Assembly (NCBI RefSeq): GCF_014269025.2
Contig: NZ_CP077094.1
Location: 186,001-250,000 of the forward strand
Direction: 5' to 3'
From: Pseudomonas promysalinigenes
Lineage (GTDB): Bacteria > Pseudomonadota > Gammaproteobacteria > Pseudomonadales > Pseudomonadaceae
Length of the DNA stretch: 64,000 nucleotides
A program made the translations under genes and the position numbers. A model generated the notes under the pieces. It was not told the DNA's origin. It worked only from the letters and a program-made list of their open reading frames with translations, and did no database searches. Shown in pieces: positions 19,013 through 26,360 of the stretch. Position 1 is the stretch's first letter. The number at the start of each line of letters is the position of its first letter.

Positions 19013-19028
19013 ACTTGTTATAACAAGT
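19013..19028. promoter_or_regulatory. Perfect 16-bp palindrome, likely operator of the GntR regulator
   Basis: ACTTGTTATAACAAGT reads the same on both strands and ends 21 bases before the gntR start codon. HutC-subfamily regulators bind palindromes of the CTTGTAnnnACAAG type, so autoregulation is a reasonable inference. Confidence 0.65.
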
Positions 19029-19049: not shown

Positions 19050-19799
19050 ATGGCCGAACTGTTCCCCCTGTCACCAGTACCGTTATACACACAGCTCAAG
19101 GAGCTGCTGCGCGAACGTATTCTCGACGGCACCTATGCCCCGCACAGCCGAATGCCTTCGGAAAGTGAGCTGGGCAAGGTCTTCGATGTCAGCCGTATTA
19201 CAGTGCGCCAGGCGTTAGGTGACCTGCAAAAAGAAGGGTTGATCTTCAAAATTCACGGTAAAGGCACTTTCGTCGCCAAGCCCAAGGCGTTTCAGAATGT
19301 CAGCACCCTGCAGGGCCTGGGTGAATCGATGACGCAGATGGGCTACGAGGTTATCAACCGCCTGCGCAGTTTCCGCCATGTACCAGCCAATAGCTTGGTG
19401 GCGGCTCGGCTGCAGGTTGGGGAGGGCAGTTTGGTCACCGAAATTCGCCGGGTCCGCCTGATCAACCGTGAGCCGGTATCGCTGGAGCTGACCTGGCTAC
19501 CAAAGGCCATCGGCGAGAAGCTGGAAAAGGCCGACCTGGTGACCCGCGACATCTTTTTGCTATTGGAAAATGACTGCGGCATCGCCCTTGGCCATGCCGA
19601 TCTGGCGATCGACGCGGTGTTGGCCGATAGCGACCTGACCCAAGCGCTGGGTGTGGAGGAGGGCGCGCCGATCATGCGCATAGAACGCTTGACCCACACA
19701 GCCGAAGGCACGCCGCTTGACTTCGAACACCTCTATTACCGCGGGGATGCCTTCCAGTACCGGCTGCGCATTGACCGCCAGAAAGGGAGCAAGGCATGA
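19050..19799 (+). CDS. GntR family regulator, HutC subfamily (UTRA ligand domain)
   Basis: A 249-residue transcription factor. Residues 8-75 form the GntR winged helix-turn-helix (PLYTQLKELLRERI, MPSESELGKVFDVSRITVRQ), and residues ~95-240 form a UTRA effector-binding domain ending in the typical LDFEHLYYRGDAFQYRLRI. ATG 19050 follows GAAGAG; an in-frame GTG at 19038 is less likely. Its stop overlaps the start of the AprA-like flavoprotein gene (ATGA), so it is co-translated with the operon it presumably controls. The effector is unknown. Confidence 0.88.
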   Translation: MAELFPLSPVPLYTQLKELLRERILDGTYAPHSRMPSESELGKVFDVSRITVRQALGDLQKEGLIFKIHGKGTFVAKPKAFQNVSTLQGLGESMTQMGYEVINRLRSFRHVPANSLVAARLQVGEGSLVTEIRRVRLINREPVSLELTWLPKAIGEKLEKADLVTRDIFLLLENDCGIALGHADLAIDAVLADSDLTQALGVEEGAPIMRIERLTHTAEGTPLDFEHLYYRGDAFQYRLRIDRQKGSKA

Positions 19800-21520
19800 G
19801 CATCGAGACCCAGGACTTCGACATCATCGTCATCGGGGGCGGCACTGCCGGGCCCATGGCGGCGATCAAGGCCAAGGAGCAAGACAAGCAATTGCGGGTG
19901 TTGCTGCTGGACAAGGCCAACGTAAAGCGCAGCGGAGCCATCAGCATGGGCATGGACGGCTTGAACAACGCAATCATCCCCGGCCATGCCACGCCCGAGC
20001 AGTACACCAAGGAAATCACCGTGGCCAACGACGGTATCGTCAACCAGGCCGCCGTCTACGCCTATGCTACCCACAGTTTCGAGACCATCGAGCAGCTCGA
20101 TCGCTGGGGTGTGAAGTTCGAAAAGGACGAAACTGGCGACTACGCGGTGAAGAAGGTCCACCACATGGGCGCTTATGTATTGCCCATGCCCGAGGGTCAC
20201 GACATCAAGAAGGTGCTCTATCGGCAACTCAAGCGCGCCCGAGTTCAGATCAGTAACCGCATGGTCTGCACTCGCGTATTGCTCGATGCCGAAGGCGCCG
20301 CTGCCGGTGTGTTGGGTTTCGACTGCCGCTCTGGCGCGTTCTGCGTGGTGCGAGCCAAGGCGGTGATTCTTGCCTGCGGCGCGGCGGGGCGCCTGGGGTT
20401 GCCATCGTCGGGTTACCTGATGGGCACCTACGAGAACCCGACGAACGCTGGTGACGGCTACGCCATGGCCTACCACGCCGGCGCCGAGCTCGCCAACCTC
20501 GAGTGCTTCCAGATCAACCCGTTGATCAAGGACTACAACGGCCCTGCGTGTGCCTATGTCACAGGCCCGTTAGGTGGCTATACCGCCAACAACAAGGGTG
20601 AACGCTTCATCGAGTGCGACTACTGGAGCGGCCAGATGATGTGGGAATTCCACCAGGAGCTGGAGGGCGGCAACGGTCCGGTTTTTCTCAAACTCGATCA
20701 CCTGGCCGAGGAAACCATCCAGAACATCGAACAGATTCTGCACAGTAACGAACGCCCCAGCCGCGGCCAGTTCCATGCTGGGCGTGGCACCGATTACCGG
20801 CAGCACATGGTCGAGATGCACATTTCGGAGATTGGCTTCTGCTCGGGGCATTCGGCCTCTGGGGTGTGGGTCAACGAAAAGGCCGAGACCAGCGTCAAGG
20901 GCTTGTATGCCGCTGGTGACATGGCAGCGGTGCCCCATAACTACATGCTAGGCGCGTTTACCTACGGCTGGTTTGCCGGTGTGAACGCGGCGCAGTACGT
21001 GGCCGGACGGGCGCTGGCCGAGGTTGATGTCGTGCAGGTCGAGCGCGAGCGTGCGCGGATATTCGCCCCGCTGCAGCGTGAGCATGGCCTGCCGCCAGCG
21101 CAGGTGGAATACAAGCTGCGGCGCATGGTGAACGATTACCTGCAACCGCCGAAAGTAACCAAGAAGATGGAAATCGGCCTGGCGCGCTTTGCCGAAATCG
21201 AGCGTGATCTCCAGCAGATCAAAGCCAGCAATCCCCACGAGCTGATGCGCGCTATGGAGGTCTCGGTGATTCGTGACTGCGCCGAAATGGCGGCCCGCGC
21301 CTCATTGTTCCGTGAGGAAAGCCGCTGGGGCCTTTACCACTACAGGGTCGACTTCCCCGAGCGCAACGATGGCGAATGGTTTTGCCACTGCCATCTGAAG
21401 AAAGGCGCAAACGGTGAAATGATCAGTTTCAAGAAACCCGTCGAGCCGTACCTGATCGCGTTGGATGCTGAAGAACAAACTGCCTATGACCGGTTAAGAG
21501 TCAAAGCCAGTGCCGCCTGA
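19796..21520 (+). CDS. AprA-like FAD flavoprotein (fumarate reductase/adenylylsulfate reductase superfamily)
   Basis: A 574-residue cytosolic flavoenzyme subunit. The N-terminal Rossmann motif is DIIVIGGGTAGP (about 10-20), and the C-terminal FAD motif is GLYAAGDMAAVPHN. The segments AGDGYAMAYHAGAE and GPLGGYTANNKGERF recall the alpha subunit of dissimilatory adenylylsulfate reductase, but at 574 residues it is shorter than AprA. It lacks a signal peptide. A two-cluster ferredoxin resembling AprB follows, so it probably works as a heterodimer with electron transfer to it. No APS-metabolism genes (sat, qmo, dsr) are nearby, so the substrate is likely different and is unknown. Confidence 0.82.
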   Translation: MSIETQDFDIIVIGGGTAGPMAAIKAKEQDKQLRVLLLDKANVKRSGAISMGMDGLNNAIIPGHATPEQYTKEITVANDGIVNQAAVYAYATHSFETIEQLDRWGVKFEKDETGDYAVKKVHHMGAYVLPMPEGHDIKKVLYRQLKRARVQISNRMVCTRVLLDAEGAAAGVLGFDCRSGAFCVVRAKAVILACGAAGRLGLPSSGYLMGTYENPTNAGDGYAMAYHAGAELANLECFQINPLIKDYNGPACAYVTGPLGGYTANNKGERFIECDYWSGQMMWEFHQELEGGNGPVFLKLDHLAEETIQNIEQILHSNERPSRGQFHAGRGTDYRQHMVEMHISEIGFCSGHSASGVWVNEKAETSVKGLYAAGDMAAVPHNYMLGAFTYGWFAGVNAAQYVAGRALAEVDVVQVERERARIFAPLQREHGLPPAQVEYKLRRMVNDYLQPPKVTKKMEIGLARFAEIERDLQQIKASNPHELMRAMEVSVIRDCAEMAARASLFREESRWGLYHYRVDFPERNDGEWFCHCHLKKGANGEMISFKKPVEPYLIALDAEEQTAYDRLRVKASAA

Positions 21521-21589
21521 GCGACACCTCACCTTATGGCAGCAAGTTCATCCAAGAACAGCGGGGGCAGCCGGTGGCGTCCACCGTGT

Positions 21590-21620
21590 TGGACCCTTTG
21601 CGGGTAAGCCCGCTCCCCTA
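21590..21620. repeat. REP-like element inside the flavoprotein-ferredoxin gap
   Basis: CCTTTGCGGGTAAGCCCGCTCC matches the putida-type REP core closely. It lies in the 160-bp gap between the two subunit genes, which otherwise shows no promoter. Confidence 0.6.
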
Positions 21621-21680
21621 GGGATAAGTGCAAGTCTTCAGATTAGAGGGTGCCCGTGAAGGCCCCAAGGACCCCGAGAA

Positions 21681-21926
21681 ATGGCCTACCAACCCCAGGA
21701 AATCTTCTTTCGCAGCAGCGCTCCGGTGACCATCGACGAAGAAAAGTGCATCGCCGACAAAGGTTGCACAGTTTGTGTCGAGGTGTGCCCCATGGACCTG
21801 CTGGCGATCAACCCGGCAACTCAGAAGGCTTACATGGCTTTTGACGAGTGCTGGTACTGCATGCCCTGTGAAAAAGACTGCCCTACCGGCGCTGTGAAGG
21901 TGGACATCCCTTACTTGCTGCGCTGA
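21681..21926 (+). CDS. AprB-like ferredoxin with two [4Fe-4S] motifs
   Basis: An 81-residue iron-sulfur protein. Cys 23, 29, 32 and 36 (CX5CX2CX3CP) and Cys 57, 60, 63 and 67 (CX2CX2CX3CP, in CWYCMPCEKDCPTGAV) form two cluster sites. The CW-x-C-xx-C-xxx-CP-x-GA arrangement is that of the beta subunit of adenylylsulfate reductase, but the long C-terminal tail of AprB (which wraps around AprA) is absent. It is therefore most likely the electron-transfer partner of the flavoprotein upstream. ATG 21681 follows CCCCGAGAA. Confidence 0.85.
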   Translation: MAYQPQEIFFRSSAPVTIDEEKCIADKGCTVCVEVCPMDLLAINPATQKAYMAFDECWYCMPCEKDCPTGAVKVDIPYLLR

Positions 21927-22046
21927 CCAATCTCCGCCATCCGGCAAACCACCGGACGCGCCTTCCTGCAAAGCCCCTCGTTTCCCACCCCCAATCCGGG
22001 CGGCGGAGACGACTTCATAACTCAAAACGATTCGAGGGGATCATCC

Positions 22047-23453
22047 ATGCGCCTTGTAGCAACCGTCGCCGGCCTAGCGCTGGCGCTAACCGGGCTGAAC
22101 GTCAACGCCCAGACCATCCGCGTCGCCATCGGTACCCAGGACACCACCATCAACTGCGCCACTGCAGGCCTGTTGATCCGCGAGCTTGGCCTGCTCGAAA
22201 AGTACCTGCCCCATGACGGCAAGTACAAGGACGCCCACTACCAGGTGGAGTGGAAGAATTTCACCAGCGGTGCGCCACTGACCAATGAGATGGTCGCCGG
22301 TAAGCTCGACTTCGGCGTCATGGCAGATTTCCCCGGCGCATTCAACGGCGTGGCGCACCTGGATGCGGGCAAACGCAGCCTGTTCATCAGTGTGCTGTCC
22401 GGTAGTGTGCAGGGTAGCGGCAATGGCATCGTCGTGCCGGCAGCCTCACAGGTGCAGTCGCTGAGTGAGCTCAAAGGCAAGACCATATCCGTGCCGTTTG
22501 CCTCCACTGCCCACGGGATGCTGCTGCGAGCCGTCGCTGCCCAGGGCTGGGATCCGCAAAAGGACGTGCGAATCATCGCCCAGGCACCTGAAATCGCGGG
22601 TTCCGCCTTGCGCAGCAACCGCATTGATGCGCATGCCGACTTCGTGCCTTTCGCCGAGCTGTTTCCCAACCGCGGCTTTGCCCGCAAGATTTACGATGGT
22701 GCCCAGGCCAAAGCACCGACCTTCCATGGCGCCTTGGTCGATGCTGACTATGCCAATCGGTACCCAGAAGTCGTCACCGCGTACCTGCGTGCCAGCTTGG
22801 AAGCTGACCGCTTGATCGCCAAAGAGCCCGAGAAATACAGCGAGTTAATCGAGAAGGTGACTGGCATCGAGGCCGAGGTTAGCTACCTGTTTCACGGCCC
22901 GCTCGGCCTACAGACCCGCGATCAGACCTGGAAACCCGAGTACCGTGAGGCAGTGGCTACGTCCATCGACACTCTCAAGTTGCTGAAGAAAACCGACCGC
23001 GGCCTGGACACCGCGCAGTTCATCGACGACCAGTACATCCGCGCCGCTTTCAAGCAGGCCGGCCTGGATTACGACAAGGCGCTCAAGAACTACGACGCAC
23101 TCCCGCTCAAGGCCAACGATGCACTAACGGGCAAGCCGATCACCGATTTCAGTCGCCTGGCGCAGATTTGGGTGCGCGGTGAAGACAAAGTACGTAACTA
23201 CGCCTCGCCCCAAGCCGCCTTGGGTGCGCTGGCCCAAATTGAGCAGGACGGCAAGGACATCCGCGCAATCTACGCCCAGGCTGCTGATAGCGGCATCAAG
23301 CTGTTAGCCAACCAAGCCTGGTTTGTGCGCAACGCTGAGGGCGAACTGGCCGCCTTCCTGCTCAAGGACCAGGCTGAGCAATATGCCAAAGCCCATGGGG
23401 GCCAAGCGCTCGACTTCGTCAGTGCCAACCAGAAGCTGGTCGCCCAGCGCTGA
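22047..23453 (+). CDS. ABC transporter substrate-binding protein (NMT1/SsuA type) with C-terminal NosL-like domain
   Basis: A 468-residue periplasmic protein. A 21-residue signal peptide (ending NVNA) precedes a two-lobe binding domain of the nitrate/sulfonate/taurine type (about 22-345), with motifs such as DFGVMADFPGAFNGV and KGKTISVPFAS. The extra ~118 C-terminal residues (about 351-468) resemble NosL, the copper-binding accessory protein of nitrous-oxide reductase: TDFSRLAQIWVRGEDKV, then AWFVRN, then AKAHGGQALDF. The metal ligands usual in NosL (the CxxCGM segment) are replaced here by ALTGKP. A typical SsuA is ~320 residues. It is followed 15 bases later by the permease gene. Confidence 0.85.
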   Translation: MRLVATVAGLALALTGLNVNAQTIRVAIGTQDTTINCATAGLLIRELGLLEKYLPHDGKYKDAHYQVEWKNFTSGAPLTNEMVAGKLDFGVMADFPGAFNGVAHLDAGKRSLFISVLSGSVQGSGNGIVVPAASQVQSLSELKGKTISVPFASTAHGMLLRAVAAQGWDPQKDVRIIAQAPEIAGSALRSNRIDAHADFVPFAELFPNRGFARKIYDGAQAKAPTFHGALVDADYANRYPEVVTAYLRASLEADRLIAKEPEKYSELIEKVTGIEAEVSYLFHGPLGLQTRDQTWKPEYREAVATSIDTLKLLKKTDRGLDTAQFIDDQYIRAAFKQAGLDYDKALKNYDALPLKANDALTGKPITDFSRLAQIWVRGEDKVRNYASPQAALGALAQIEQDGKDIRAIYAQAADSGIKLLANQAWFVRNAEGELAAFLLKDQAEQYAKAHGGQALDFVSANQKLVAQR

Positions 23454-23468
23454 CCGGGAGCCGCCACC

Positions 23469-24254
23469 ATGAACCGCGACCTCAAGCGTTGGCCCCTGCG
23501 CCTGATCTCTTTGCTGGCCTGCTTGCTGTTCTGGCAGGTGGCGGCCAGCGTCAGGCTGGACCTGGGCCTGCTGACCTTCACCTACGTTCCTACGCCGCAG
23601 ACGGTGCTGAGCGCGGCCTGGCAACTGCTGACTTCGAGTTTACTAATGGCGCACCTTGGCAGCAGCCTGTCGCGGGTATTTGCCGGTTACGCGGTTGCCT
23701 CATTGCTTGGCGTGGCACTGGGGCTGCTGATCGGCCGATCGAAATGGGCCGAGGATGTGCTGCTGCCGCCATTGGAGGTGTTGCGGCCGATTCCAGCGGT
23801 TGCCTGGATCCCGCTGTCGATCCTGATGTTCCCCTCTTCGGAGCTGTCGATGGTGTTCATCACTTTCACCGGAGCCCTGTTCCCGATCCTGCTCAATACC
23901 GTTCATGGCGCAGAGGCCGTAGACCCGCGCCTGGTGGCCTCGGCACGCAGCCTCGGTGCCGGGCGCTGGGCGATCTTGCGCGATGTGGTATTGCCCGGCG
24001 CGCTGCCAAGCATCGTTACAGGCCTGGCTATCGGCATGGGCACCTCGTGGTTCTGCCTGGTCACTGCCGAAATGATCGCCGGGCAGTTCGGCATCGGTTA
24101 CTACACCTGGGAGTCATATACCTTGCAGAACTATCCGGACATTGTTGTCGGCATGTTGTTGATCGGCGTACTTGGTATGGGTAGCAGTGCGCTGGTCAAG
24201 CGCCTTGGAGCACTGGCCACGCCTTGGTACCGCACGCGGAGGGCCGGTAGATGA
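23469..24254 (+). CDS. ABC transporter permease (SsuC/TauC type)
   Basis: Inner-membrane subunit of 261 residues with about six membrane segments and the BPD_transp_1 EAA-type loop ([27 protein letters not shown]), which contacts the ATPase. RPIPAVAWIPLSILMF is typical of the sulfonate/taurine/nitrate transporter family. It starts 15 bases after the binding protein and overlaps the ATPase gene by four bases (ATGA). It forms the importer with its two neighbours; the substrate is unknown. Confidence 0.9.
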   Translation: MNRDLKRWPLRLISLLACLLFWQVAASVRLDLGLLTFTYVPTPQTVLSAAWQLLTSSLLMAHLGSSLSRVFAGYAVASLLGVALGLLIGRSKWAEDVLLPPLEVLRPIPAVAWIPLSILMFPSSELSMVFITFTGALFPILLNTVHGAEAVDPRLVASARSLGAGRWAILRDVVLPGALPSIVTGLAIGMGTSWFCLVTAEMIAGQFGIGYYTWESYTLQNYPDIVVGMLLIGVLGMGSSALVKRLGALATPWYRTRRAGR

Positions 24255-25102
24255 GCACTGGTCAACAGATGCATGGACGCGTCGATGGGCGTGGCCTGTC
24301 GATTCGCCTGGGGGAGGGCGATGAAGCTTTCGAAGCAGTCCAACGTCTGGATTTTGCCGTGGAGCCTGGTGAGTTCGTCTGCATACTCGGGCCTTCGGGC
24401 TGTGGCAAATCCACCTTGCTCGGCGCCTTGGCCGGCCACCTGGCCCCCAGCGACGGCACCTTGAGCGTGGATGGGCAGGCCATTGCCGGCCCTTCGCCGC
24501 TGCGCGGCATGGTGTTTCAGCATCACACCCTACTGCCATGGCGCAGCGTGCTCGACAACGTAGCCTTTGGCCTGAAGATGCAAGGCATTGGCAAGGCCGA
24601 GCGCCGCCGGCAGGCAGCCGAAATGCTGCGTTTGGTAGGCCTGGCGGAGTTTGCCGAACGCTGGCCCAGCCAGCTATCTGGTGGCATGCAGCAGCGCGCT
24701 GAAATCGCGCGAGTATTGATCAACCGCCCACGGCTGCTGCTGATGGACGAGCCGTTTGGCGCCCTGGATGCACAGACCCGATCGCGCATGCAGGAGCTGC
24801 TGCTGAAAATCTGGGCGCGCATTGGCACCACGGTTGTGTTCGTTACGCATGATATCGATGAAGCCCTGTTCCTGGCCGACCGCATTTTGGTCATGAGCCC
24901 TCGCCCGGGGCGCTTCATTGAGGAGCTGCGCTTGGACTTCGCCCGTCCGCGCAATGCCAGTCTGCTGACCCGCCCAGACTTCACTCACCTAAAACGCCAT
25001 TGCCTGGCCCTACTGCGCCATGAAGAAGGCCGCGAATTACCACGCCTAACGCCACTTGGCCTGCCACTCAGCGAACATCCGCCGCTAAGGATCGCGCTAT
25101 GA
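24251..25102 (+). CDS. ABC transporter ATPase (SsuB/TauB type)
   Basis: A 283-residue ATPase. Walker A is GPSGCGKST, the Q-loop QHHTLLPW is of the sulfonate/nitrate type, the signature is LSGGMQQR, and Walker [13 protein letters not shown] is followed by the switch His in VFVTHDIDEAL. A short extra N-terminus of ~35 residues precedes the domain. It overlaps the permease and the HEAT-repeat gene by four bases at each end, so all are translationally coupled. Confidence 0.92.
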   Translation: MSTGQQMHGRVDGRGLSIRLGEGDEAFEAVQRLDFAVEPGEFVCILGPSGCGKSTLLGALAGHLAPSDGTLSVDGQAIAGPSPLRGMVFQHHTLLPWRSVLDNVAFGLKMQGIGKAERRRQAAEMLRLVGLAEFAERWPSQLSGGMQQRAEIARVLINRPRLLLMDEPFGALDAQTRSRMQELLLKIWARIGTTVVFVTHDIDEALFLADRILVMSPRPGRFIEELRLDFARPRNASLLTRPDFTHLKRHCLALLRHEEGRELPRLTPLGLPLSEHPPLRIAL

Positions 25103-26067
25103 CCGAACGACGCACAGACAACCCTGAGATTCTGCAACTGCTGCCACGCCTGGAAGCTGACGACGCAGCGGTGCGCCGCATCGCCCTGCTCGAATTGGCC
25201 GATCTTGAAGATTCCGATGCCCTGCCGTGGCTCACCGATGCCCTGTTGATAGACAGCGCCGACCAGGTGCGTGCCGAGGCTGCGCGCCTGCTGGAGGCCT
25301 GGGAAGAGCCGGCAGTGGTGCAAGCCTTGTGCGCCGCTCTGGCCGATGCTGGAGAAGCAGTGCGCTTGGCGGCTGCGCAAAGTCTCAGCGAATTGAAGCA
25401 CCCGCAGTCGGGCCTATTGATCCTGCCATGGACGACCCATGCCGATGGTTTCGTACGCGCCAGTGCCTTGCGTGCGCTGCGTGAATTGCGCCTCGAAGAT
25501 GCCGCCGCACCTGCCTTGCTGGCACTGCAGGACACGGACGCGACTGTGCGTCGCGAAGCGGTAGGCGTGCTGGGTTGGCTCAAGCACGAGCCTGCCTTGC
25601 CTGCCTTGGCGAAACTGGCCGAGCATGAGCCGGATACCGAAGTCCGTCGCGCAGCGATTGGCGCGTTGGGGCTTTCCCGTAACTCCACAGTCTTGCCGGC
25701 ACTTATCGGCGCCCTGTGCGATCCGGCCTGGCAAGTGCGCGAGGAGGCCGCGACGACCCTGGGCAAGGTAGGGCATGTTCAGGCGGCCCCGGCATTGGTG
25801 TCGGCGCTGGCAGATGGCTTCTGGCAGGTGCGATTGCGCGCTGCTCGATCGCTTGGCCGCCTGCGTGATGCACAGGCGTTGGATGCCTTGGCCGGTTTGC
25901 TTGGCCACTGCATCGCCAACCTGCGTAAAGAAGCCGCGCTGGCCCTCGGTGAGCTGGGCCAGGCCCGCGCCTTGCCAGCGTTGCAGGCGGCTGAAGCTGA
26001 CAGCGACCCTGAAGTACGTAAGGCGGTTCGCATTGCCTTGACGCAGTTGAGCGGGGCTAACGGATGA
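25099..26067 (+). CDS. HEAT-repeat (PBS lyase-like) protein
   Basis: A 322-residue soluble protein built almost entirely of ~31-residue alpha-helical repeats, each with a pattern such as VRxEAxxxLGxLxxxxALPAL (for example VRREAVGVLGWLKHEPALPAL and VREEAATTLGKVGHVQAAPAL). This is the PBS-lyase/HEAT fold, usually a protein-protein interaction or assembly scaffold. No catalytic residues are seen. It overlaps the ATPase start (ATGA) and the DUF971 gene (ATGA), so it belongs to the same unit. It might help to mature the Fe-S flavoprotein, but that is only inference. Confidence 0.8.
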   Translation: MTERRTDNPEILQLLPRLEADDAAVRRIALLELADLEDSDALPWLTDALLIDSADQVRAEAARLLEAWEEPAVVQALCAALADAGEAVRLAAAQSLSELKHPQSGLLILPWTTHADGFVRASALRALRELRLEDAAAPALLALQDTDATVRREAVGVLGWLKHEPALPALAKLAEHEPDTEVRRAAIGALGLSRNSTVLPALIGALCDPAWQVREEAATTLGKVGHVQAAPALVSALADGFWQVRLRAARSLGRLRDAQALDALAGLLGHCIANLRKEAALALGELGQARALPALQAAEADSDPEVRKAVRIALTQLSGANG

Positions 26068-26360
26068 ATGGCCCAAGTCGGATTCATAACCAGCGTGCGT
26101 ACGGGTTGCTGACCGTACAGTGGCCCGATGCCGAGGCTGTCATTAGCCATGCTCGACTAAGGGGCAACTGCCCTTGCTCGCAATGCCGAGCAGCGGGTTT
26201 GCAGGGGCGGGTGATGGTGGTCAGAGACGATGTTCGCGTGGAGCGCCTCATAGAGCAGGGCTACGGTGTGCAGCTGCTATTCAGCGATGGGCATCAGCGA
26301 GGTATCTACCCTTGGGCCTACTTGCGCACGCTTGCCGATCTGTCGCCTACAGTGCGATGA
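26064..26360 (+). CDS. DUF971 family protein (GBBH-like N-terminal domain)
   Basis: A 98-residue protein with LRGNCPCSQCR in the middle, a Cys cluster conserved in DUF971, followed by GVQLLFSDGHQRGIYPWAYLRTL. The same fold is the N-terminal zinc domain of gamma-butyrobetaine hydroxylase, and DUF971 proteins are also found fused or next to Fe-S assembly proteins of the Mrp/ApbC type. Here it is the last gene of the operon, overlapping the HEAT-repeat gene by four bases. An accessory role for Fe-S or metal sites is an inference. Confidence 0.8.
   Translation: MNGPSRIHNQRAYGLLTVQWPDAEAVISHARLRGNCPCSQCRAAGLQGRVMVVRDDVRVERLIEQGYGVQLLFSDGHQRGIYPWAYLRTLADLSPTVR

Follow-up and report, generated by a model that had tools for sequence, protein, structure and literature searches.

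What does an eight-gene operon of Pseudomonas promysalinigenes bring into the cell, and what does the flavo-iron-sulfur enzyme encoded beside its importer do with the imported compound? The operon, R-A-B-S-P-T-H-D, was read from open reading frames (ORFs) at 19050..26360, all on the plus strand, of a 64,000-nucleotide stretch of the chromosome (the window; positions 186,001 to 250,000 of contig NZ_CP077094.1). It is real and widespread, and its flavoprotein gene A, for which no substrate is assigned, usually carries the annotation fumarate reductase/succinate dehydrogenase. Judged by sequence, it is a variant of the AprAB/AsfAB kind and a member of neither. Our clearest new result is a case-control comparison in which modules that reduce ferredoxin were found beside the enzyme in many hosts. 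The reading that we place first, with somewhat less than even confidence, is one of import and reduction: a ferredoxin-driven A-B enzyme would reduce or reductively split an imported solute, most likely a small organosulfur compound. The features of the locus are as follows.

19013..19028, no strand: perfect 16-bp palindrome ACTTGTTATAACAAGT upstream of R, candidate operator (from sequence and conservation)
19050..19799, plus strand: R, GntR-family regulator with a UTRA ligand-sensing domain (PF00392, PF07702)
19796..21520, plus strand: A, flavin adenine dinucleotide (FAD) flavoprotein of 574 amino acids (aa), resembling AprA and 3'-phosphoadenosine 5'-phosphosulfate (PAPS) reductase, probable catalytic subunit (FAD_binding_2 and Succ_DH_flav_C; NF006131)
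21681..21926, plus strand: B, AprB-like ferredoxin subunit with two [4Fe-4S] clusters, 81 aa (Fer4 dicluster)
22047..23453, plus strand: S, periplasmic binding protein of SsuA/TauA type with a C-terminal extension, 468 aa (NMT1-type)
23469..24254, plus strand: P, ATP-binding cassette (ABC) permease (PF00528, BPD_transp_1)
24251..25102, plus strand: T, ABC ATPase (PF00005, ABC_tran)
25099..26067, plus strand: H, HEAT-repeat protein, 322 aa (PF13646, HEAT_2)
26064..26360, plus strand: D, DUF971 (GBBH-like_N) protein, 98 aa (PF06155, 67.4 bits, cut-off 22.8)

An operon conserved as a unit

Every one of the eight proteins matches a Pfam domain above the Pfam cut-off, and these domains, together with the ORFs, bear out the eight codirectional genes proposed in a first-pass annotation of this DNA. 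Close junctions of the kind that it noted are also present: ATGA overlaps join R/A, P/T, T/H and H/D, and 15 bases separate S from P, with looser gaps of 160 bases between A and B and 120 bases between B and S. The A-B gap (21521-21680) contains a short GC-rich inverted sequence, which we take to resemble the repetitive extragenic palindromic (REP) element of P. putida.

Conservation of the unit was followed in a Pseudomonas sample (the best 80 of at least 567 A matches, from named genomes) and in 48 neighbourhoods comprising 36 genome stretches, 7 of them from Pseudomonas or its family, and 12 plasmid records. The full eight-gene order is kept at 68 of the 80 Pseudomonas loci; seven lack S-P-T and keep A-B-H-D, four run off the end of a contig, and one keeps just R and A. 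At Pseudomonas locus L037, R and A are present, and none of the other six genes was found within 19.7 kb. B and the HEAT protein accompany A in all 48 neighbourhoods, a DUF971 relative is present at 36 and full-length S at 42, and the A-B-H combination recurs across phyla. These counts agree with the earlier proposal of an AprAB-like pair conserved as a unit with its own importer, and the neighbourhood comparison that the same annotation had named as its possible undoing found the genes kept together.

B lies immediately after A at 46 of the 48 loci and is displaced in L115 and L116; in L115, from Nostoc, five unrelated genes (two HAD hydrolases, a methyltransferase, a GNAT and a VOC protein) stand between the two. 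Of 249 Pseudomonas genomes sampled, 88 have the A gene, which is also present in 15 of 299 genomes taken from the phylum at large (the source genome counted) and on 53 plasmid records, including those of rhizobia, Burkholderiaceae, Acidithiobacillus, Acinetobacter, cyanobacteria and Tsukamurella. Its closest named relatives, among the matches listed, are from P. putida and other Pseudomonas spp. In the laboratory strain P. putida KT2440 the operon corresponds to PP_0204-PP_0211, with PP_0206 as the ferredoxin. All eight genes are carried on a 44-kb plasmid record of Acinetobacter baumannii (L107). A variant operon (L150, L152, L156 and L157) has a membrane protein of 220-250 aa between P and T, plus SCO1, with cytochrome c also present in three of the four; the membrane protein of L156 matches no Pfam or NCBIfam family.

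The regulator scores 126.6 bits against the HutC model, below its cut-off of 220. The palindrome ACTTGTTATAACAAGT ends 21 bases before the start of R and is the sole site in the 5.05-Mb genome at two or fewer mismatches. A core of GTTATRAC type lies within 130 bp upstream of R at all 87 loci of Pseudomonas and its family that have R (three from a sister genus); of the random windows serving as the control for this set, 20 of 1740 show it. At other loci the core was found in 9 of 22, against 2 of 440 random windows. L157, of the same order but another family, carries the identical 16-mer palindrome. Because the operator-like palindrome is single and conserved, R is probably a dedicated local regulator, and it may repress the operon at this site until its ligand appears. 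The operator was also tried as a lead to function through a wider regulon, and was discarded since one genomic site leaves no further target genes.

Electron supply and the partners of the enzyme

By sequence, A and B bring together an FAD subunit, a subunit with two [4Fe-4S] clusters and an electron-relay tryptophan, as in AprAB and PAPS reductase. B scores 35 bits against the aprB model, below the cut-off of 135.65, and matches both AprB and the beta subunit of PAPS reductase; it keeps eight conserved cysteines and a tryptophan in the motif DECWxC, aligning with the CW of AprB.

The surroundings of the enzyme at 41 loci from outside Pseudomonas were compared with 40 control stretches, which come from other parts of the same contigs in 21 of the genomes. 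Twelve of the 41 loci are plasmid records with no controls of their own, and several share one genus. FdxA is encoded at 23 of the 41 loci and in none of the 40 controls (22 of 40 loci without the one that supplied the FdxA reference). A ferredoxin-reducing module, that is, ferredoxin-NADP reductase (FNR), an Nfn-like fusion or Rnf, stands at 25 of 41 loci against 1 of 40 controls, the 25 dividing into 16 with FNR, eight with a fusion of GltD and a PyrK/SudB-like part, and one with Rnf. Fisher tests give p = 3e-9 for FdxA and 5e-9 for the modules, uncorrected for relatedness or reference donors. The donors L109, L110, L150, L156 and L157 matched themselves, and without them modules are found at 20 of 36 loci; when loci were grouped by hand according to genus, the modules stood at 19/33 against 1/13 (p = 0.003). 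The control stretches contained one RnfC, three TlpA and one PCuAC match as well. The co-localization of FdxA and ferredoxin-reducing modules with the enzyme is new here, as is the conserved operator-like site unique in the genome.

The GltD + PyrK/SudB-like fusion, of about 1150-1190 aa, lies beside the enzyme in L155, L158, L159, L160, L161, L164, L165 and L109; it matches NF009414 and NF005128, below their cut-offs, and is possibly a single-chain Nfn. In L156 the order is A-B-H-FdxA-Rnf genes, with RnfB, RnfC and membrane subunits recognized by eye. The source genome of the window has one FdxA, encoded away from the operon.

The presence of ferredoxin-feeding modules beside the enzyme in so many hosts points to reduction and suggests that A-B is itself reduced by ferredoxin, so that the direction of the reaction is probably reductive. 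The first-pass annotation had proposed import of a substrate that a flavo-iron-sulfur enzyme then reduces or oxidizes; import coupled to such an enzyme stands, and the ferredoxin modules shift the likelier chemistry towards reduction. Were the enzyme to run the other way, the solute would be oxidized and its electrons passed through ferredoxin to NADP or the membrane, a course for which it speaks that AprAB works in both directions in nature and that the accessory modules are reversible. In aerobes, however, FNR/Fpr and Rnf usually reduce ferredoxin, and three unrelated ferredoxin-handling modules would hardly be needed for an oxidation, which makes this direction decidedly improbable.

In actinobacteria (L116, Nocardia/Rhodococcus) A and the HEAT protein are a single polypeptide, and the best 120 of 6097 matches to a fused query, a list that favours fusions, are all of 887-911 aa with HEAT domains. 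NF010374, the family of A-HEAT fusions, matches A with 871 bits and H with 82.8 bits (in its C-terminal part), both below the cut-off. Since H is fused to A in these hosts and stays when S-P-T is absent, we assign it to the enzyme and not to the importer, perhaps as a chaperone of A or as a subunit that partners it. D is missing from both cyanobacterial loci, which have an Mrp/ApbC-type iron-sulfur carrier instead; L157 has both. Plant HCF101, an iron-sulfur factor of the Mrp type, contains DUF971. A role in maturation is plausible for D, which, like the Mrp/ApbC protein of the two cyanobacterial loci, would probably aid the loading of iron-sulfur clusters.

The pocket of A and the nature of the solute

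The flavoprotein passes the NCBIfam model NF006131 (PRK08275 family; 1137 bits, cut-off 587), whose name carries no tested substrate. It remains below the cut-offs of the aprA model (189 bits against 641.75) and of TIGR01812 for SdhA/FrdA (163 against 567.3). Its nearest solved relative is the PAPS reductase of Methanothermococcus thermolithotrophicus (8a8o_A, E 3.9e-64). Homologues of A in our set are 57-93% identical to the window protein, while the methanogen PAPS reductase is 30% and AsfA-type proteins are 22-26% identical to A. A tree was built from 27 sequences, including PAPS reductase, AsfA-type proteins and the genome's own SdhA but not AprA. In it A forms a clade of its own (support 83), sister to archaeal PAPS reductase (joining support 98) and outside the AsfA-type clade (support 100). 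The first-pass annotation had allowed that A might cluster with a characterized enzyme; it falls inside no included enzyme of known substrate (PAPS reductase, AsfA-type, SdhA), AprA being compared by score only.

The position of the catalytic arginine of AprA and PAPS reductase is occupied in A by Leu243, as in at least 98% of 49 aligned members; we take the arginine aligned in PAPS reductase to be R265 of AprA. Leu243 sits in the motif QINPLxKDYNG, and A carries a six-residue hydrophobic insert, YVLPMP, in the nucleotide-loop region. Both lie in near-invariant motifs (VHxxGxYVLPMPxG and ECxQINPLxKDYNGxxCAYV; the others are DYWSGQM and SEIGxCxGHSASG), and residues 121-134, 236-260 and 344-356 are largely invariant in the 49 proteins, which is what a substrate pocket should show. 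According to passages of PMC10322725, the methanogen PAPS reductase keeps the catalytic residues proposed for dissimilatory adenosine 5'-phosphosulfate (APS) reductases and releases sulfite, through a proposed attack of FAD N5 on sulfur. Leu243, the insert and the other near-invariant motifs suggest that A has the scaffold of this sulfite-releasing reductase with a different pocket.

Four assignments of A were considered and set aside: AprA, by the curated cut-off and the missing arginine (AprA being absent from the tree); PAPS reductase, by the missing arginine and the tree; SdhA, by the cut-off and the tree; and AsfA, by a separate clade and 22% identity to the flavoprotein of the Cupriavidus metallidurans megaplasmid. 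The last rests on the CH34 pair, assigned as AsfAB by its partner and approximate position, and not on AsfA of strain S-313. The idea that A-B truly reduces APS or PAPS for assimilation can call on the sister position of A and on the matches of B to AprB and the PAPS reductase beta subunit. Given the exchange of the arginine for Leu243, the hydrophobic insert, and an operon in which an importer is present while both Sat and APS kinase are missing, we consider it very improbable indeed.

Both S and T are closest to taurine/alkanesulfonate transporters, all below cut-off: S scores 116 bits against SsuA_fam (163.5) and 78 against TauA (304.25), with TauA 6ssy as its best solved relative (E 2.9e-16), and T scores 267.5 bits against the taurine ATPase model (357). 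P has 23 NCBIfam matches, none reaching its cut-off, the best being SaoP of the organometal SAO system. Asn126, Ser153, Gln179 and His227 of S are present in all 43 proteins compared, the most distant of them 31% identical, and make it likely, as far as sequence can tell, that S binds one substrate everywhere; His196 and Asp94 are kept in 42 and Glu182 in 36. Ser153 is common to S, TauA and SsuA, and the residue at Asp94 is also Asp in SsuA. The C-terminal extension of S, earlier read as a NosL fusion, gives no support to a copper-binding domain of that kind: its NosL part reaches 21.3 bits (cut-off 24), and no Cys, Met or His of the extension is kept in more than half of the 43 proteins.

Of the 35 usable loci, eight have sulfur-type genes in their flanks, compared with one of the 40 controls (p = 0.01), a modest enrichment. 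The raw count of 14 of 41 was reduced by dropping the reference donors L106, L107, L108, L114 and L115, and also L116, where its own S matched; three of the eight (L147-L149) belong to one genus. A TauE/SafE sulfite-exporter gene adjoins the operon in L108 and, together with YeiH, in L114, and one fused homologue carries the source name "Putative reductase (alkanesulfonate metabolism)". The same window holds a sulfur-scavenging stretch at 36000-58400, recognized by eye, with MetNIQ-like genes, a DmoA-type monooxygenase, two SfnB-like genes, TauABCD-like genes, an LsfA-like peroxiredoxin and Ssu-like genes. Sulfur chemistry is favoured but unproven for the operon.

A non-sulfur solute, whether a complexed metal, an inorganic anion or a nitrogen compound, would suit the conserved His196, Asp94, His227 and Glu182 of S, since TauA and SsuA differ at Glu182, His196 and His227. 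It would also suit the best match of P, to SaoP and below cut-off, as well as SCO1, present at four of the 41 loci and in none of the 40 controls, and a PCuAC-like protein, present at two of these loci and in one control. The kinship of S with TauA and SsuA, the flanking sulfur genes and the kinship of A with PAPS reductase favour sulfur instead, SCO1 is limited to four loci, the aspartate is shared with SsuA, and the extension of S is without conserved metal-type residues. We regard such a solute as unlikely, though deserving of some weight.

Import and reduction of an organosulfur compound has its own difficulties, and several points weigh against it. The AprA/PAPS-reductase arginine is missing from A, and sulfur chemistry is therefore not transferable to A by homology. 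Asn126, Gln179, Glu182, His196 and His227 of S are other residues in TauA and SsuA, and of the nine loci L158-L166 seven are without flanking sulfur genes. Ferredoxin-reducing modules are absent from 16 of the 41 loci and from the eight-gene Pseudomonas operon itself; moreover, the reversibility of FNR, Nfn and Rnf makes an oxidative direction possible. Passages of PMC6066579 report that the KT2440 ferredoxin PP_0206 rises 7.5-8.5x in zinc stress and table it with isc and fpr1, a response that fits iron-sulfur demand as well as sulfur. We found no experiment on any member of the family, and a full-text literature search confined to openly licensed papers returned none recognized as describing the operon; the sections seen of PMC6395730, on sulfolane, hold nothing on it.

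As we picture import and reduction, S would bind a single, specific small solute on the periplasmic side, and P-T would carry it into the cell. Electrons would pass from a soluble low-potential ferredoxin, here the host FdxA and in many relatives one encoded beside the enzyme, to the two [4Fe-4S] clusters of B and on to the FAD of A. The A-B enzyme, which shares its build with dissimilatory APS reductase and with PAPS reductase of the methanogen, would then reduce or reductively split the solute; if this is a small organosulfur compound, as is most likely, sulfite or another usable sulfur species would be released. That the pair constitutes, in aerobes, a new class of reductive enzymes driven by ferredoxin, with a redesigned pocket, an oxygen-free reductive split of an imported organosulfur compound, electrons fed by dedicated Rnf, Nfn-type or FNR modules, and a HEAT subunit, is a tentative proposal and on balance doubtful. 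Should it hold, soil and root bacteria would have in such reduction by ferredoxin a new means of gaining sulfur or of dealing with a common small molecule. Aerobic desulfonation beyond asf is known to proceed by oxygenases. The aerobic desulfonation described in sections of PMC4267179 uses oxygenases.

Comparison with AsfAB, AprAB and PAPS reductase

According to the portions consulted of the review PMC4267179, asfA mutants of P. putida S-313 lost growth on aromatic but not aliphatic sulfonates, and AsfAB is an electron-transfer pair for oxygenation in the use of aromatic sulfonates; the AsfAB of C. metallidurans is named in part of PMC2864759. AsfA-type proteins occur in 12 of the 249 Pseudomonas genomes, three of which (G009, G887 and G909) also have A. 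Such loci include L232-L236, with further AsfA-type flavoprotein genes in Pseudomonas, and L237, which has TonB-receptor-like and TauD-like genes, AsfB, an SsuA-type protein and a DmoA-type monooxygenase.

The AsfAB layout, a similar flavoprotein with a dicluster ferredoxin and an SsuA-type protein described as serving oxygenation, raises the alternative that A-B passes electrons to an oxygenase encoded elsewhere and does not act on the imported compound. The DmoA-type monooxygenase and TauD-like gene beside AsfAB in L237 fit this, as do a Rieske protein after D in L105 and a DmoA-type monooxygenase in L106, both loci of A. No oxygenase recurs in the flanks, however, where a luciferase-like monooxygenase and TauD, the types searched, were each found at 1 of 41 loci; A is nearer to PAPS reductase than to AsfA in the tree; and its largely invariant segments are those expected of a substrate pocket. 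We judge the alternative improbable, and retain import and reduction by A-B itself as the preferred reading.

Among known systems, the SAO organometal ABC system (SaoA, SaoB, SaoP), one hallmark of which is selenocysteine, is approached by weak matches of P and T, both below cut-off. AsfRABC of P. putida S-313 and C. metallidurans CH34 shares a flavoprotein of FAD_binding_2 type, an adjoining ferredoxin with two [4Fe-4S] clusters and an SsuA-type ABC importer. It differs in that AsfA-type proteins form another clade (22-26% identity), its regulator, tied to control by sulfate starvation, is of LysR type whereas that of the operon is GntR/UTRA, and the operon adds HEAT and DUF971 proteins with no recurring linked oxygenase. 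Dissimilatory AprAB shares the sequence family of A and, in B, a Fer4 subunit with the CWxC tryptophan; A and B, in contrast, fall under the aprA and aprB cut-offs, and the eight genes include no Sat, Qmo or Dsr. From PAPS reductase 8a8o, A is set apart by Leu243 in place of the catalytic arginine and by the six-residue insert in the nucleotide loop; with it the operon shares a related ferredoxin beta subunit, and A keeps both the histidine of the SExxxxxGH motif and Asn57.

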